From positions 1 through 21,396 of the IMG/VR virus record IMGVR_UViG_3300034019_000383: a DNA stretch of 21,396 nucleotides; one strand, written 5' to 3'. The position numbers and the translations under genes were made by a program. Position 1 is the stretch's first letter, and each line of letters starts with the position of its first letter. Origin of the DNA: a virus. The notes below the pieces were generated by a model. The model was not told the origin of the DNA, did not search any database, and saw only the letters and a list, made by a program, of their open reading frames with translations. This document shows positions 16,386 through 21,229 of the stretch, piece by piece.

Positions 16386-16451
16386 GTAGGGCAACGCCCT
16401 ACCCCCCTACCCTGTGGATAAGTCTGTGGATAACTTTTTACAAAAAAGTTA
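16386..16451. other. Putative replication origin with two DnaA boxes
   Basis: Two perfect DnaA boxes in the same orientation, TGTGGATAA at 16413-16421 and 16425-16433 (complement TTATCCACA), sit 12 bp apart start to start. On the left is a GC hairpin (GTAGGGC-AAC-GCCCTAC, 16386-16402). On the right is an AT-rich perfect 9-bp inverted repeat (TAACTTTTT-ACA-AAAAAGTTA, 16431-16451) that could be the easily melted part. The combination in the only long non-coding region argues for an origin fired by host DnaA. The origin function is inference. Confidence 0.65.
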
Positions 16452-16672: not shown

Positions 16673-16700
16673 TTGACAGGATAGACTAGCCTAATCTAAT
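16673..16700 (+). promoter_or_regulatory. Strong sigma70-type promoter of the rightward operon
   Basis: TTGACA (16673-16678), 16-bp spacer, TCTAAT (16695-16700). It lies 48 bp before the first rightward start codon. The spacer is almost filled by an imperfect 15-bp palindrome (AGG-A-TAG-A-CTA-G-CCT, 16678-16692), a possible operator. Confidence 0.75.
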
Positions 16701-16711
16701 GTTCTCCCTAT

Positions 16712-16733: not shown

Positions 16734-16747
16734 GAAAGGATAAGGAA
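16734..16747 (+). promoter_or_regulatory. Ribosome-binding region complementary to the operon terminator loop
   Basis: GAAAGGATAAGGAA directly precedes the first start codon. It is the exact reverse complement of 19940-19953, the terminator loop plus one stem base at the end of the same operon. A near copy, GAAAGGATAAGAA, precedes the gene at 17205. Confidence 0.7.
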
Positions 16748-16897
16748 ATGGACAGATATTTGCTTATAGAACTAGGTAGCGAGGGCATCGCTTTTGAGAC
16801 CGCTCAATTTGATTTCTACGCCTCTTGGCTAGGTATTGGGATAGCTATTGCCTCACTTGTGGCTTACCGCATTATCAAGAGCAGAAAGGGCGCATAA
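16748..16897 (+). CDS. Single-span membrane miniprotein, 49 aa
   Basis: First gene of the rightward operon. ATG at 16748 with AAGGATAAGG upstream; 49 aa. The acidic N-terminal half (MDRYLLIELGSEGIAFETAQFDFY) is followed by a hydrophobic helix (about residues 27-43, WLGIGIAIASLVAYRII) and a basic tail (KSRKGA). By the positive-inside rule the N-terminus would be outside. The first product of an early phage operon is often host-directed, for example a membrane or superinfection function, but nothing specific is shown. The stop overlaps the next start (TAATG). Confidence 0.7.
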   Translation: MDRYLLIELGSEGIAFETAQFDFYASWLGIGIAIASLVAYRIIKSRKGA

Positions 16898-17127
16898 TGA
16901 ATTGGAGACAGGCTATTGCCCCCCTCGTTGCGTTTGAGGAATGGCTAGAGAAAACAGACGAAGGCTACGCCTACGCCAAGAAGAAGTACCAATGGGCAAG
17001 GGATCAGCAGGGTAAGGCGGAGAACTCGTCCGATCAGAACTACTGGGACTCCGTTCGCTGTAAGTGGGCTAAGGAAATGGAGGACATCAAGGCAGTAATG
17101 GCGGACACCTACAAAGCCAACTCCTAG
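16897..17127 (+). CDS. Hypothetical helical protein, 76 aa
   Basis: I place the start at ATG 16897, overlapping the previous stop by one base, rather than at an upstream in-frame codon inside the membrane miniprotein gene. AAAGG lies about 8 nt upstream. The product is soluble, helical and charged, rich in Trp/Tyr/Lys (MNWRQAIAPLVAFEEWLEK, YAYAKKKYQWARDQQ, YWDSVRCKWAKEMEDIK). No family is recognised. It is followed by a 77-bp structured gap before the next gene. Confidence 0.7.
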   Translation: MNWRQAIAPLVAFEEWLEKTDEGYAYAKKKYQWARDQQGKAENSSDQNYWDSVRCKWAKEMEDIKAVMADTYKANS

Positions 17128-17138
17128 TGCTTGCCTTT

Positions 17139-17166
17139 CCTCGCAGGGTTAGACTATCCTGCGGGG
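17139..17166 (+). promoter_or_regulatory. Hairpin in the leader of the 17205 gene
   Basis: CC(T)CGCAGG / CCTGCG(G)GG forms a 9-bp stem including one G-T pair, with a 10-nt loop. A second small repeat, GGAGG-AACTAG-CCTCC, follows at 17171-17186. There is no U-tract, so this is more likely an mRNA processing or translation-control element than a terminator. The loop area (17146-17160) also resembles the palindrome in the main promoter. Confidence 0.45.
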
Positions 17167-17204
17167 GAGGGGAGGAACTAGCCTCCACATTGAAAGGATA
17201 AGAA

Positions 17205-17615
17205 ATGGAAACAATGGAAAAGGAACAGACACTAGAGGGCTACCTTGTAGGTCTAGGTCTAAAGTTCAAGGCGGAAGAGATAGACGCGCCCGATAGTGCG
17301 CCTGAGTGGGTCAAGAGTGGGAGAGCGCGAGCCTATCGCGTAAGCCTCTCTCGTAATGGTAAGCGTGCCTCACTCAATTACTATCAAGGGAGAGGCATAC
17401 AACACGAGCCACGCCCTGCCGATGTAATCGCCTCGCTAATGCTGGACAGTTCCCTAGCCGATTACTCACTCAAGCAGTTCGGCGATGAGATGGGCTGGAA
17501 CGAATACACACTAGACACGCACAAGGCGTGCCAACTCAACAAGGCAAAGATCGTGCGCTTATTTGGTGAGGGAGATATTTATCAGACTCTCTCAGAATTG
17601 GCGGGTGGCTACTAA
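17205..17615 (+). CDS. Conserved phage/plasmid-type protein, 136 aa
   Basis: ATG at 17205 after GAAAGGATAAGAA. 136 aa. The N-terminal part (TLEGYLVGLGLKFKAEEIDAP) leads into a beta-rich centre (ARAYRVSLSRNGKRASLNYYQGRGI, about residues 41-65), then PADVIASLMLDSSLADYS and a C-terminal FGDEMGWNEYTLDTHKACQLNKAKIVRLFGE. I recall the same plan, with a GY-D-S-KA-C-k-L signature, in small uncharacterised proteins of actinophages and mobile elements. Function is unknown. The family resemblance is from memory. It ends with TAATG overlap into a membrane miniprotein. Confidence 0.8.
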   Translation: METMEKEQTLEGYLVGLGLKFKAEEIDAPDSAPEWVKSGRARAYRVSLSRNGKRASLNYYQGRGIQHEPRPADVIASLMLDSSLADYSLKQFGDEMGWNEYTLDTHKACQLNKAKIVRLFGEGDIYQTLSELAGGY

Positions 17616-17734
17616 TGTTCGAGGTTTCTACGAATTGGATCAACGGACTAGGGCAAGTGCTGGTCTATTGCCTAGCGATAGGGCTAGGGCTTTACCTACT
17701 AAGCAAAATCGAAACGAAAGGGGAGGACAAGTGA
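17615..17734 (+). CDS. Single-span membrane miniprotein, 39 aa
   Basis: ATG at 17615 overlaps the previous stop (TAATG). 39 aa: a short N-terminus, one hydrophobic helix (about residues 13-30, QVLVYCLAIGLGLYLLSK) and a charged tail (IETKGEDK). It lacks its own strong Shine-Dalgarno and is probably translated by coupling. Possible holin-like or membrane-perturbing peptide, but far from the transglycosylase gene. No family recognised. Confidence 0.6.
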   Translation: MFEVSTNWINGLGQVLVYCLAIGLGLYLLSKIETKGEDK

Positions 17735-17886
17735 GCGAGTATTCAACCTGCCACATATGCAAAGAGGATAGCAAGACTGAAGATATGGTGACAGATATAT
17801 CGGGAACGCTATATTGCTATGTCTGTGCTGACATCTGCTTAGTCTGCGGTATCTATCAACACGACTGCGAGGGGGCGAGCGTATGA
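17731..17886 (+). CDS. Cys-rich zinc-binding miniprotein, 51 aa
   Basis: GTG at 17731 overlaps the previous stop (GTGA) and follows GGGGAGG (5 nt). 51 aa with Cys at 7, 10, 29, 32, 36, 39 and 46. The spacing C-x2-C-x18-C-x2-C-x3-C-x2-C implies one or two zinc sites of zinc-ribbon or treble-clef type. First of four consecutive Cys-rich miniproteins. Likely role is binding to nucleic acid or to a host enzyme, by analogy with small phage zinc proteins; the actual target is unknown. Confidence 0.7.
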   Translation: MSEYSTCHICKEDSKTEDMVTDISGTLYCYVCADICLVCGIYQHDCEGASV

Positions 17887-17978
17887 ACTACATCAAGAAC
17901 GAGAAGGGAAGGCTGGTTTGTTGCTCTTGCGAGCGCGACATAATGGAACATCACAAGAGGCGGTGTCCTTATGCCTAA
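17883..17978 (+). CDS. C2HC zinc-finger-like miniprotein, 31 aa
   Basis: ATG at 17883 overlaps the previous stop (ATGA). 31 aa. The pattern C13-x2-C16-x6/7-H23/H24-x3/4-C28 fits a small C2HC finger (similar in spacing to Rad18/UBZ4-type fingers). Basic (IKNEKGRL, HHKRRC). It has no strong ribosome-binding site and relies on coupling. Its 3' end overlaps the next gene by 8 nt. Very short, but the metal-ligand spacing and tight packing support it. Confidence 0.6.
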   Translation: MNYIKNEKGRLVCCSCERDIMEHHKRRCPYA

Positions 17979-18129
17979 GTGTGGTGTGTGTGGCTGGTCT
18001 TTCTCAGATAGAACGCTGATGAAACACGCTGAAACCCCGTGCGGGGAGGAGAGCGAGAAGGCAGGTAAATACCTGCCTGAAATAGATGATTTACTACGAC
18101 AAGAGGAGGAAAGTAATGACCGAGTTTGA
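17971..18129 (+). CDS. C2HC zinc-finger miniprotein, 52 aa
   Basis: ATG at 17971. 52 aa. The N-terminus holds C4-x2-C7-x11-H19-x4-C24 (KCGVCGWSFSDRTLMKHAETPC), a finger-like ligand set, followed by an acidic helical tail (EIDDLLRQEEESND). It overlaps both neighbours. The acidic tail next to a finger suggests a protein-interaction or transcription-modulating role, but this is inference. Confidence 0.65.
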   Translation: MPKCGVCGWSFSDRTLMKHAETPCGEESEKAGKYLPEIDDLLRQEEESNDRV

Positions 18130-18217
18130 TTTCGTAGGCTCGACAGTAATCTGCCAAGCCTGCCGAAAAGAGTTTGAGTTACAAGAGAACGATTTATTTA
18201 GATGCGAGGAGTGCTAA
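18116..18217 (+). CDS. Zinc-ribbon miniprotein, 33 aa
   Basis: ATG at 18116 with AGGAGG 7 nt upstream. 33 aa. C13-x2-C16-x13-C30-x2-C33 is a compact zinc ribbon, with the last Cys at the very C-terminus. The N-terminus is MTEFDFVGSTVI. Fourth Cys-rich miniprotein in the run. The stop overlaps the next start (TAATG). Confidence 0.65.
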   Translation: MTEFDFVGSTVICQACRKEFELQENDLFRCEEC

Positions 18218-18387
18218 TGAACAAGGAATACTATCAAGCGAAGGCAGATCTCTGTCGGGACCTGGCAATTCAGCAGATGACAGAGGGAGATAGCAAGGAA
18301 GCGGGCGCTAACCTGATTCGTATGGTCAATGCCTTGAATGAATTACAACTAATCAACTACAAGGAGGAGAAGCGTGAAGCTAACTAA
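18217..18387 (+). CDS. Helical hypothetical protein, 56 aa
   Basis: I place the start at ATG 18217, one base into the preceding stop, with GAGGAG about 7 nt upstream. An upstream in-frame ATG at 18202 is inside the zinc-ribbon gene and less likely. The product (MNKEYYQAKADLCRDLAIQQM, then ANLIRMVNALNELQLI) is amphipathic helical, like the small helix-hairpin proteins found in many phage early regions. No family recognised. Confidence 0.65.
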   Translation: MNKEYYQAKADLCRDLAIQQMTEGDSKEAGANLIRMVNALNELQLINYKEEKREAN

Positions 18388-18601
18388 TTTCTATGAGGTA
18401 ATGGATCGCAAGGGAGATATTTCGTGGGGTGGGGCTAGTCCAAGCGAAGCCGTTGAATGGTTCAGACGAGGGCTAGATAACTCTATTTTTGTGAGTGTAT
18501 GGAATGAGCAGGACATTGAGAACCCTGTGCTGGTCACCGACAAGATAGAAGTCACAGCTCTAGTGCTGGCTACTATCACAAGCGAGAGGAGTAGAGGGTG
18601 A
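18374..18601 (+). CDS. Hypothetical protein, 75 aa
   Basis: GTG at 18374 follows AAGGAGGAG and overlaps the preceding gene by 14 nt. 75 aa. It begins MKLTNFYEVMDRKGDISWGGASPSEAVEWFRRGLDNSIFVSVWNEQD and continues with a beta-strand-like IENPVLVTDKIEVTALVLATI. The plan (strand, GxxS, helix with W/F and R, then strands) recalls short actinophage proteins whose members carry an S-P-x-E-A/W-x-R segment. Function unknown. Its stop overlaps the next gene's GTG. Confidence 0.7.
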   Translation: MKLTNFYEVMDRKGDISWGGASPSEAVEWFRRGLDNSIFVSVWNEQDIENPVLVTDKIEVTALVLATITSERSRG

Positions 18602-18684
18602 TATTTCTAGGCGTAATAGTGGCGACCATTCTTGCCTACCTGCTTATAGTGTGGGAGGATAAGCTCAATGAACCTCAAAACTGA
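18598..18684 (+). CDS. Single-span membrane miniprotein, 28 aa
   Basis: GTG at 18598 overlaps the previous stop (GTGA), with GGAG about 7 nt upstream. 28 aa. Almost the whole N-terminal part is a hydrophobic helix (MIFLGVIVATILAYLLIVW) followed by a short charged tail (EDKLNEPQN). It is two genes before the transglycosylase, so a holin-like or accessory lysis peptide is conceivable but unproven. Very short; the coupled start is the support. Confidence 0.55.
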   Translation: MIFLGVIVATILAYLLIVWEDKLNEPQN

Positions 18685-19006
18685 GAAGCCAAAGAAAGAA
18701 TATCCTGCGCTGGAAAAGCGCAGACGCAACTCTGAGAAGCGTGCGGTATGGCTACGCAATTATCAGAGGGCGAGAGCGCGAGCGCTCACCAAGCTGGCAC
18801 AGCAATACCCCGACCAATACAAGGATTTACTTGAGAAGGAGAGGCTAACTGATGAGGCTAATGGAAGGGCGTGGTTGGATATTAGTGGCGCTACCGCTAT
18901 TGACCTTGATGTTTCTGTTCTCACATATGGAGCAGGTAACACACTTAGATCCCAAGAAGGCAACGCAGATGAGCAGGACAAAGGCTACGTGGAAGGAGAA
19001 GAATGA
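18668..19006 (+). CDS. Basic helical phage protein, 112 aa
   Basis: ATG at 18668 with GGAGG 10 nt upstream. 112 aa. Residues about 15-65 (RRRNSEKRAVWLRNYQRARARALTKLAQQYPDQYKDLLEKERLTDEANGRAWLDI) form a basic helix followed by a QYPDxY motif. I have seen this type in actinophage small proteins (R-N-Y-R-R-A-R-x-R-A-L-x-x-L-A...YP). From residue 62 on, the C-terminus overlaps the transglycosylase gene by 155 nt in another frame, so that tail may be overprinted or extended. Nucleic-acid binding is likely from charge; no direct function known. Confidence 0.7.
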   Translation: MNLKTEKPKKEYPALEKRRRNSEKRAVWLRNYQRARARALTKLAQQYPDQYKDLLEKERLTDEANGRAWLDISGATAIDLDVSVLTYGAGNTLRSQEGNADEQDKGYVEGEE

Positions 19007-19280
19007 AAACAGAGCGCTCGCAAAAGAGTATGCGTGGGTTGCGTTTGGTTGGAGAGGAGGGCAGTGGCGATGTTTGGAGTCCTTATGGACCCGTGAGAGT
19101 AGGTTTGACCACTACGCTCAGAACCAGCAAGGAAGTAGCGCTTTTGGAATTGCTCAGGTACTTGGAGAAAAGAATAGAGATCCTCGAATACAGATACTCA
19201 GAGGTCTGCGCTATATTAGAGAACGATATTCTACCCCGTGTAGAGCGAACGCTTTCTCTCTTAGAAAAGGACACTACTAA
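18852..19280 (+). CDS. Membrane-anchored lytic transglycosylase/lysozyme-like protein, 142 aa
   Basis: ATG at 18852 after AAGGAGAGG. Residues about 9-24 (WILVALPLLTLMFLFS) form a signal-anchor helix. The C-terminal domain (about 66-142) has CLESLWTRESRF with the likely catalytic Glu82, then NQQGSSAFGIAQ (91-102), QILRGLRYIRERYSTPCRAN and a final GHY. This is the SLT-like transglycosylase plan seen in actinobacterial and actinophage proteins, which cleave the MurNAc-GlcNAc bond. The anchor suggests export by the host Sec system, possibly a SAR-type endolysin. An in-frame ATG at 18969 without the anchor is an alternative start. It overlaps the 112-aa gene by 155 nt. Confidence 0.8.
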   Translation: MRLMEGRGWILVALPLLTLMFLFSHMEQVTHLDPKKATQMSRTKATWKEKNENRALAKEYAWVAFGWRGGQWRCLESLWTRESRFDHYAQNQQGSSAFGIAQVLGEKNRDPRIQILRGLRYIRERYSTPCRANAFSLRKGHY

Positions 19281-19282
19281 AA

Positions 19283-19918
19283 GTGAAACTACTTGACCTC
19301 TACTGTAAGGCAGGTGGAGCAAGTAAAGGCTACGCTGACGCTGGCTTTGAGGTAACAGGGATAGACATAAAGAAACAGAAGCGCTATCCCTTTACCTTCA
19401 TACAGGCAGACTGTCTTGATGTATTGAAGGACTTGGATTACTTGAGAACCTTTGATGTGATAGCAGCTAGCCCACCTTGTCAGACTCATAGCGCAACCAA
19501 GCACCTACGGGTAGCGCAGGGTAAGACAACAGATAAGGTGGATCTCATACCTCAAACTCGTGAGGCTTTGATAGCAAGTGGCAAGCCTTATGTTATTGAG
19601 AATGTTCCTGGAGCTCCGCTTATCAACCCTGTTCAGTTCTGTGGTTCTAGTTTTGGCTTGAAGGTCAGAAGGCATAGACTCTTTGAGTCTAACCTCGCAC
19701 TCACAGGTTCATCTTGTAAGCACAAAGAACAAGGCAGACCTGTTGGCGTGTATGGTTCTATGAAAGATGAGATACCTAGCGGAGGACGCACCGCAAAGAC
19801 TATTGAAGAAGCAAGAGAAGCAATGGGTATTGAATGGATGATATGGGGAGAATTAGTAGAGGCTATCCCACCCGTTTATACTTATGAAATTGGAAAGCAA
19901 TTAGTTAGCCTGCTATAA
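19283..19918 (+). CDS. DNA cytosine-C5 methyltransferase, 211 aa
   Basis: GTG at 19283. Motif I is LDLYCKAGGASKGYADAGF (residues 4-22, with Lys in the usual FCGAGG position). The catalytic motif is SPPC (Cys66). ENV lies at 106-108 and RRHRLFES at 129-136 (motif VIII). Motif X-like IPPVYTYEIGKQL closes the fold. The target-recognition part between motifs VIII and X is short (about 137-180), typical of small phage enzymes, so specificity cannot be read. It would methylate cytosine at C5 in phage DNA, probably to escape restriction. Last gene before the terminator at 19928. Confidence 0.9.
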   Translation: MKLLDLYCKAGGASKGYADAGFEVTGIDIKKQKRYPFTFIQADCLDVLKDLDYLRTFDVIAASPPCQTHSATKHLRVAQGKTTDKVDLIPQTREALIASGKPYVIENVPGAPLINPVQFCGSSFGLKVRRHRLFESNLALTGSSCKHKEQGRPVGVYGSMKDEIPSGGRTAKTIEEAREAMGIEWMIWGELVEAIPPVYTYEIGKQLVSLL

Positions 19919-19927
19919 TAAAACTGT

Positions 19928-19964
19928 AAAGCTCCGCAGTTCCTTATCCTTTCTGCGGGGCTTT
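19928..19964. terminator. Bidirectional intrinsic terminator between convergent operons
   Basis: A 12-bp stem (AAAGCTCCGCAG / CTGCGGGGCTTT, one G-T pair) with a 13-nt loop, followed by TCTATTTG on the plus strand and by TTTACAGTTTTATT when read on the minus strand after the A-rich side. It ends the rightward operon and the leftward operon that converge here. The loop TTCCTTATCCTTT is complementary to the first rightward ribosome-binding region. Confidence 0.85.
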
Positions 19965-19965
19965 T

Positions 19966-20145
19966 CTATTTGTCTTTGTCATTTGAATAGAACCCTGATC
20001 CCCGAAAGGAGATAGGAGGAGAGGACCAGAGTCTATTCATCATTTCGCCGCAGTCAGAGCAGGAGGGGGTGCTTGCTTCGGCGTGGATTGAACGCTCAAC
20101 GAGAGAGGTAATTGAGCAGTTCGGACATTTGTATTCGTATATCAT
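19966..20145 (-). CDS. FmdB-type zinc-ribbon protein, 59 aa
   Basis: I place the start at ATG 20145 (MIYEYKCPNC), which overlaps the stop of the adenine methyltransferase gene (ATGA). An upstream in-frame ATG lies inside that gene. C7-x2-C10 and C29-x2-C32 form the zinc ribbon, and the C-terminus SFRGSGFY matches the FmdB / putative regulatory zinc-ribbon family found in bacteria and phages. The role is probably regulatory or nucleic-acid binding; the family is poorly characterised. Last gene of the leftward right-hand operon. Confidence 0.8.
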   Translation of the reverse strand: MIYEYKCPNCSITSLVERSIHAEASTPSCSDCGEMMNRLWSSPPISFRGSGFYSNDKDK

Positions 20146-20600
20146 CTTATCACTACCACCGCAGAGGGAAATGGCGCGGAGTTCTTTTGGTTGCCAAACT
20201 TGAGACGACCTTTGATAAATCTTACCTCGTGATGGATACAATAGTTATGCCACCAATTCGTATCAGTGCGAGCAGGAACAAGGCAGACAACAACTCCACC
20301 TAGCTTTGCTTCTCTGTTTGCTTTCTCTAGCCACTTACCTATTACCCTGCCGTATGGTGGGTTGAGCCAGATAGGTTTACCTTCTGAGTCCATATTCCAA
20401 TAGCGACCAAAGGCATCTCTGCGAAATGGCTCAGGGTGATCTGGTCCATACCAATTCTCAGGTACAAGGGTGGAAGAGGAGAGTGCGGCGGCATCTAATC
20501 CAAAGTTGAACTCGTGGTTCAGTTTGTTGAAGAAGTCTTTGGGCGTACTCCAAGTATCATCGTTAGATGTACGCATACCTGTAGTAAATCCTTTTGTCAT
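20142..20600 (-). CDS. Phage Dam-type adenine-N6 methyltransferase, 152 aa
   Basis: ATG at 20600 overlaps the previous stop (ATGA). 152 aa. Early motif WSTPKDFFNKLNHEFNFGLDAAA (residues 17-39), catalytic NPPYG (80-84) and LVPARTDTNWWH (107-118) followed by FIKGRLKF are the hallmarks of the phage DNA N-6-adenine-methyltransferase (Dam, PF05869-type) family. It transfers methyl from AdoMet to adenine N6. Length is within the family. It pairs with the cytosine methyltransferase across the terminator, suggesting a double modification of the phage genome. Recognition site not predictable. Confidence 0.9.
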   Translation of the reverse strand: MTKGFTTGMRTSNDDTWSTPKDFFNKLNHEFNFGLDAAALSSSTLVPENWYGPDHPEPFRRDAFGRYWNMDSEGKPIWLNPPYGRVIGKWLEKANREAKLGGVVVCLVPARTDTNWWHNYCIHHEVRFIKGRLKFGNQKNSAPFPSAVVVIR

Positions 20601-21229
20601 TGGTAAGGACTATCTCCACCGAGATTGTTCTGTAACTTACGAAGAGAACTTTGGCAACGCCTATCAGCGGTGGAGATAGCACACTCTAGGTACGAGGCTA
20701 ACTCTTGGAGAGTAAGGTTCTCGTGGTATCTCTTGATGAGAATATCTTTATCAACTACATCTAACTTCAAGTATGCCTTCTTAATATCAATGAGCGTGGC
20801 GAGAAGGTTGCCACCTTCAGCAGGAGCAGACTGCTTCTTTGGTTGCCCATCGTTGATGAGGTTCTGAGCCTGTTCTAATACTGTATTATCTACAACGGAA
20901 GCGATGACGTGAGGCAAGAGCTGGGCTATGACGACAGTATCATAGAAGGCTTCATCAGTAAGTTTATATCCGCTACGAGTAGCCTTCTCCCTGCGAGCAT
21001 AGCGTTCTGCGTGACGCTTCATCTGCCACGCCATACGCTTCTCGTTGATGACTCGCTGGACTGTGTTCTCTTCCGATAGTAATTGGTTGAAGTGTTCTGC
21101 TCGTGAGTAGTACCACGACCAGCACTCTTGAACTACATCTTCTCGCTCAACAAAGTTGCGGTATCTACTGAAGATAGTTCTAGCTACGCTAAAGACTATA
21201 TCGCCAGCAGAGGGGTGAGTCTCAGTCAT
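20597..21229 (-). CDS. Sigma-factor-like protein, 210 aa
   Basis: ATG at 21229, overlapping the preceding stop by 8 nt. 210 aa. The N-terminal part (IFSRYRNFVEREDVVQECWSWYYSR, about residues 19-43) resembles the sigma region 2 entry helix, and the C-terminus (LDVVDKDILIKRYHENLTLQELASYLECAISTADRRCQSSLRKL, about 155-198) is a region-4-like helix-turn-helix. The middle is Lys/Arg-rich. Similar 200-aa proteins are frequent in actinophages and are annotated as sigma or DNA-binding proteins. It could direct late transcription. A repressor or other HTH protein is the alternative. Ends with ATGA overlap into the adenine methyltransferase. Confidence 0.75.
   Translation of the reverse strand: MTETHPSAGDIVFSVARTIFSRYRNFVEREDVVQECWSWYYSRAEHFNQLLSEENTVQRVINEKRMAWQMKRHAERYARREKATRSGYKLTDEAFYDTVVIAQLLPHVIASVVDNTVLEQAQNLINDGQPKKQSAPAEGGNLLATLIDIKKAYLKLDVVDKDILIKRYHENLTLQELASYLECAISTADRRCQSSLRKLQNNLGGDSPYQ

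Follow-up and report, generated by a model that had tools for sequence, protein, structure and literature searches.

A hairpin behind a rightward phage operon carries a loop complementary to ribosome-binding leaders of the same operon

Why should a terminator-shaped hairpin at the end of an operon hold in its loop the complement of the ribosome-binding region at the operon's beginning? The question is raised by the virus record IMGVR_UViG_3300034019_000383, analyzed here as one 21.4-kb stretch (21,396 nucleotides, nt; below, the window), in which the structural genes are directed leftward and a single operon rightward. This operon begins at 16748, its last gene ends at 19918, and the hairpin lies directly behind it. 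The complementarity of the loop to the leaders in the window is confirmed, and loops and leaders differ together among related phages. From these comparisons we consider it probable that the hairpin is the active end of a phage antisense RNA that blocks several leaders of its own operon and represses their translation.

Complementarity between the loop and the leaders

The elements concerned are the following.

19928..19964, plus strand: hairpin with a 12-bp stem and a 13-nt loop, followed by a U-rich tail; terminator shape (folding)
19940..19953, plus strand: loop TTCCTTATCCTTT with the stem-base C, antisense to the leaders (sequence match, class test)
16734..16747, plus strand: leader GAAAGGATAAGGAA of the first gene, target 1, perfect over 14 nt (sequence match; predicted duplex with the loop, -20.5 kcal/mol)
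17192..17202, plus strand: leader GAAAGGATAAG, target 2, perfect over 11 nt (predicted duplex, -14.8 kcal/mol)
18656..18663, plus strand: leader AGGATAAG, weaker target 3, 8 nt; gene start at 18668

The reverse complement of 19940-19953 recurs exactly over 14, 11, and 8 nt in the three leaders, and an ATG is situated directly 3' of each (16748, 17205, and 18668). An earlier note on this DNA had reported the same three matches, giving 7 nt for the last. Its further statement that the match fills the entire loop agrees with the folding, which places the 13 nt precisely in the loop of the stem 19928-19939/19953-19964 (-19.0 kcal/mol). The 12-bp stem followed by TTTTCTATTT has the form of an intrinsic terminator; the hairpin is missing from the terminator scan list because its loop exceeds the loop-length limit of that scan. 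No further copy of the 14-mer with 0-1 mismatches was found in the window, and therefore none precedes the leftward structural genes.

The duplex energies come from an RNA-RNA interaction prediction, a check proposed in the earlier note. For comparison, leader 1 paired with the 16S rRNA tail ACCUCCUUUCU gave -10.0 kcal/mol, the tail being a typical sequence that may differ from the host's. Extended complementarity to ribosome-binding regions, as characteristic of antisense small RNAs, is thus seen in the matches of 14, 11, and 8 nt and in the class pattern among relatives.

Shuffled controls rarely gave equal complementarity. Composition-preserving shuffles of the loop produced a 14-nt match anywhere in the operon in 4/20,000 cases, and none of 1000 shuffles matched a leader equally well. 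With the Shine-Dalgarno (SD) core GAAAGG fixed and the rest shuffled, 14 nt were matched in 117/20,000 cases, approximately the rate (1/168) at which the true order recurs.

Loop classes in related phages

Relatives were gathered using the last gene of the operon as an anchor.

19283..19918, plus strand: C5-methyltransferase-like gene, 211 amino acids (Pfam PF00145, 7.5e-6; phrog_363, 3.6e-35)

In about 40 related viral contigs, the same methyltransferase gene is directly followed by a hairpin whose loop measures 10-15 nt. The loops are pyrimidine-rich in every class except G and include TTATCCTTT, TAACCCTTT, and ACCTCTTTC; leaders of the same class tend to match (AAAGGATAA, AAAGGGTTA, GAAAGAGG).

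Class W: loop TTCCTTATCCTTT, in the window, L075, and L076
Class A: loop TTTCTAACCCTTT and variants, in about 20 phages
Class B: loop GTTACCTCTTTCC and variants, in 7 phages
Class C: loop of L005
Class D: loop of L022 and L034
Class F: loop TTCTTACCTTTCTCT, in L348, L351, and L353
Class G: loop TTTTGTTCATTTA

In classes W, B, C, D, and G the loop is located within the terminator-like hairpin, and in classes A and F it forms a separate hairpin ahead of the terminator. The leader of the third target, AGGATAAG, is also present in L075 and L076. Among methyltransferase-side loops of classes W, A, B, and D, 52% of 31 match a leader over at least 9 nt. For the other hairpin loops of these phages, non-trivial leader matches of at least 9 nt number about 8/505, a count that sets aside loops representing the minus strand of a leader itself. 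Such loops made up most of a first tally, since rejected, in which 22% of other pyrimidine-rich hairpin loops had matches of at least 9 nt.

The terminase of the window is nearest to that of an unclassified tailed phage (46%) and of Streptomyces phages (about 43%). Megablast of the region against named phages gave no match, nor did comparison of the window with Rfam 15 at gathering score, and a search for cellular relatives of the methyltransferase gave only a remote clostridial match. Pattern scans of IMG/VR for the loop 14-mers yielded, among the matches listed, scattered contigs of chance-like character, and were not used.

Loops and leaders differ together

The leaders change with the loop class. 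They read GAAAGGGTTAGAAATG or near it in class A, mirroring the A loop, GAAAGGATAA in class W, and GAAAGAGG in class B. The motif AAGGGTTA occurs in 25/422 class A leaders vs. 1/565 others (Fisher 6e-9), AAGGATAA in 4/32 class W leaders vs. 2/955 elsewhere, and AAAGAGG in 10/147 class B leaders vs. 8/840 elsewhere, all these being Fisher-type counts that ignore shared ancestry. For that reason loops were also exchanged between whole classes, and only 6/5040 assignments equaled the real one in fit. A start codon follows 26 of the 32 plus-strand occurrences of AAGGGTTA in class A (background 0.23), and 24 more are on the minus strand.

The most telling single evidence comes from orthologous genes with class-specific leaders. 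One family has the leader AAAGGATAA in the W phage L076, and GAAAGGGTTA and AAGGGTTA in the A phages L033 and L330, respectively. Another has GGGTTAGA in class A, GAAAGAGG in class B, and GAGAGTG in class D, each fitting its own loop. Since the leader motifs are found on more than 20 unrelated gene families, the pattern is not inherited via one gene. The earlier note had proposed looking in related phages for joint changes of loop and leaders; matched changes on both pairing sides are present in classes W, A, and B, weak in C, D, and G, and absent in F. The pairing interpretation thus has strong comparative support, and the joint variation in the three main groups suggests a built-in RNA switch that would lower translation of probably early genes.

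Class G differs in kind. Its terminator loops TTTTGTTCATTTA (L357, L365, L356, L354) have the stem of the window, but their complement is TAAATGAACAA, a region spanning the start codon, in place of the SD region: 11 nt at L357:8089 and, partly, 10 nt at L365:270. This start-codon complementarity is only suggestive.

A promoter-like element before the hairpin

In what form would the loop be transcribed? Immediately upstream of the hairpin there is a candidate promoter.

19911..19919, plus strand: TGCTATAAT, extended -10-like, across the methyltransferase stop codon; putative promoter of a short RNA (promoter scan: TTGGAA-18-TATAAT with TG)

The sequence TGNTANNNT, of extended -10 shape, is located at or near the end of the methyltransferase gene in approximately three-quarters of the hairpin-bearing phages vs. 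about 7% in shuffles, and in 0/5 relatives where another gene directly follows (L358, L363, L364, L366, L368). The element, written TGnTAnnnT, stands at the stop codon; the final residues of the methyltransferase vary (LL, VL, MI, ML) while the bases of the element stay, which indicates selection on DNA. This suggests the promoter of a very short RNA, which in most classes would be some 40-70 nt long. Its position just upstream of the hairpin favors a separate RNA over a 3'-end fragment or a looped mRNA, the two forms that the earlier note had put forward. The pairing with the leaders in that proposal is supported, loops and leaders differing together.

In class B, a second CU-rich stretch was observed between the promoter-like element and the hairpin (L023:5638-5660, GCGCCTCTTTCGC; L077:5640-5655, CGCTCTCCTTTCG), with 10-nt matches upstream in L077.

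Proposed mechanism

The hairpin RNA would have two sources, probably its own putative promoter, overlapping the stop codon of the methyltransferase gene, and in addition the 3' end of the operon mRNA; judging from the operon layout, loop and leaders would then share one mRNA. Two or three genes of the rightward, probably early, operon would have their extended ribosome-binding leaders paired with the 13-nt loop, which would keep ribosomes off the targeted leaders and perhaps also expose the duplex to nuclease. As the hairpin RNA builds up with operon transcription, translation of the targeted genes would be turned down. We infer that a separate RNA exists, pairs in the cell, and represses its targets, with a timing of feedback or early-to-late shut-off.

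Points against the antisense reading, and alternatives

Several observations weigh against this reading. The loop classes were drawn by eye from the same data as were tested, the Fisher values take no account of common descent, and the exchange signal comes mainly from W, A, and B, with C, D, and G weak and F failing. A formal count of covariation in the class A stems gave one double change, a slight and indecisive result. In L076, a close relative with the loop of the window, the phage's own leaders match over only 10 and 9 nt; hence the 14-nt perfection is not itself conserved, and the shared core is about 9-11 nt. In L001/L324, L012/L174, and L353 the hairpin is kept with no leader match above 8 nt in their available fragments. 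An intact hairpin with a non-complementary loop was what the earlier note had named as contrary evidence, and these phages supply it in part. In the exceptions, the match may be lost, host genes may be targeted, or the targets may be outside the fragment. Finally, five class A phages have TGCTGGGTT in place of the -10-like element, and in some class A phages the predicted start would fall inside the hairpin, which makes the promoter part less certain.

Four other explanations were considered. It is unlikely that the loop imitates the pyrimidine-rich 3' tail of 16S rRNA and binds any purine-rich site, including the host's, with the leader match as a by-product. Such an anti-SD mimic would account for the presence of CCTTTC or CTTTC in every W, A, and B loop, for the similarly flavored purine-rich leaders of class B and D phages, and for the only generally CU-rich loops outside K1 in the cluster K mycobacteriophages discussed below. 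However, the 16S tail is near-invariant in bacteria, whereas the loops vary by class, match their own leaders over more than the SD core, and lose fit on exchange; mimicry, an idea of the earlier note, is therefore not supported on its own. Moreover, class G loops are without anti-SD sequence, and the leader-1 duplex is twice as strong as that with the 16S tail.

An ordinary terminator, its complementarity resulting from chance and the purine/pyrimidine bias of leaders and loops, is improbable too, even if the hairpin has terminator shape and some relatives lack the match. Chance alone is disfavored as the source on the strength of the shuffles, the class permutation, and the few matches from other loops. 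The orthologous leaders speak against it as well, and in class A the hairpin is separate and stands in front of the terminator.

There is little to recommend the view that the motif is a DNA site for a protein, similar to a stoperator or operator, which faces one way before the genes and the other way behind the operon. Inversion leaves such a site unchanged as DNA, and one-orientation stoperators exist in cluster A phages (PMC3203893), but the sites here are at ribosome-binding distance from start codons. Moreover, the inverted copy of every class falls precisely within the loop of a hairpin, whether or not that hairpin belongs to a terminator, and a DNA site would call for no such placement.

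Least credible of all, and very improbable, is a function of the opposite strand, by which a hairpin loop on leftward transcripts would display the leader sequence and serve as a decoy, drawing away ribosomes or a regulator. The minus strand of the window hairpin can also fold, and a U-rich stretch follows it where the leftward genes end, but that fold is weaker (-15.1 vs. -19.0 kcal/mol), a class A leftward transcript would, as read from the sequence, reach the terminator before the hairpin, and in cluster K1 both flanking genes are rightward.

The class A terminator that follows the antisense hairpin, at L001:5633-5720 among other loci, has its better U tail on the leftward strand; transcripts running leftward would therefore end ahead of the hairpin, which only rightward transcripts would include. 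An opposite-strand gene start at the loop was rejected, as no ATG or GTG occurs within about 20 nt after the SD-like sequence on the minus strand.

Other features of the region

16673..16702, plus strand: possible promoter of the rightward operon, TTGACA-18 nt-TAATGT (read from the sequence; absent from the promoter-scan list)
16748..16897, plus strand: first rightward gene, 49 amino acids, predicted small membrane-like protein (membrane character read from the sequence)
17205..17615, plus strand: gene of 136 amino acids with a targeted leader, phrog_4273, function unknown

Family searches with the 49-amino-acid product gave no match. Between the divergent operons, two DnaA-box-like copies of TGTGGATAA were observed at 16412-16435. 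At 18668-19296, three open reading frames overlap heavily in different frames (18668-19006; 18852-19280, transglycosylase-like, phrog_15428; and 19003-19296). On the minus strand, 20142-21229 encodes a Dam-like adenine methyltransferase adjoining a weak match to sigma-70 region 4.

Comparison with known systems

The system would constitute antisense control at ribosome-binding sites in a new form. The antisense RNA C4 of phages P1 and P7 blocks the ribosome-binding site of a gene in the same operon; it derives by processing from the leading part of the transcript and acts on a single target, whereas here the element is at the operon end and has several. Control by pairing at ribosome-binding sites has so far been known from single cases, while here several leaders and one loop vary jointly across a family of uncultured phages, providing a natural series of matched and mismatched pairs useful for testing RNA control in phage development.

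In the icaR mRNA of S. aureus, a UCCCCUG motif of the 3'-untranslated region pairs with the SD sequence of the same mRNA, and this pairing reduces translation and favors decay by RNase III (PMC3868564). The likeness consists in a pyrimidine-rich 3' motif complementary to an SD sequence, in icaR on the same mRNA. However, icaR is one host gene with a 7-nt motif 260 nt past the stop codon, whereas here a 13-nt hairpin loop is complementary to several leaders of a phage operon, in sequence classes that differ by phage. The S. aureus small RNAs RsaE and RNAIII, with UCCC loops (named in PMC3868564), likewise use a CU-rich single-stranded loop to pair with the SD sequences of several mRNAs; they are host-encoded and their motif is constant, whereas here the loop changes with its targets between phages.

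Together with icaR, the nearest parallel is found in cluster K mycobacteriophages. There a 13-bp Start Associated Sequence (SAS) occupies the ribosome-binding position of 13-19 genes; the literature described its role as undetermined in 2011 and as still not known in 2024 (PMC3203893, PMC11373665). Pope and co-workers described one opposite-orientation SAS copy in four phages, untied to a gene start. In Adephagia (L401, JF704105), the noncoding gp92-gp93 gap contains a strong hairpin, within whose loop the single antisense copy, at 58682-58694, falls exactly; late transcription is reported to begin in this gap (PMC11373665). Anaya, Validus, Niklas, and LilPharaoh (K1-type) retain the antisense loop, with varying stem sequence; the loop is present in 5/16 cluster K phages examined and missing in 10/16, and in ZoeJ the reverse SAS site adjoins the start of a leftward gene. 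Phages outside the K1 group have other CU-rich sequences in the loop, or have lost it, but retain the SAS. The idea that all SAS phages carry an antisense loop was dropped, as only 5/16 do. No paper describing the cluster K antisense-loop hairpin was found among the open-licence literature.

Both systems have a repeated extended ribosome-binding sequence before their genes, conserved in the SAS case beyond the part that pairs with 16S rRNA, and, in K1 phages as in the window, an antisense copy in a hairpin loop. They differ in sequence, the SAS (GGGATAGGAGCCC), with its 13-19 sites, being unrelated to the window leaders, which read GAAAGGATAAG(GAA); the 13-bp SAS does not occur before gene starts in the window, so that the two could at most work alike. 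The cluster K hairpin, moreover, is in the gap where late transcription is reported to start and not behind a methyltransferase gene. The link is a lead, not a general rule. It is conceivable, if rather doubtful, that a widespread and unrecognized phage strategy is involved, in which a repeated extended leader ties early genes together, one hairpin RNA with an antisense loop turns the set off, and loop and leader co-diversify as do a repressor and its operators, possibly giving each phage its own exclusion of relatives. If so, the SAS of cluster K would belong to the same strategy, at least in K1 phages. For the SAS, whose function has been open since 2011, the comparison also offers a cheap and direct test of part of that function, in phages that grow in M. 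smegmatis.

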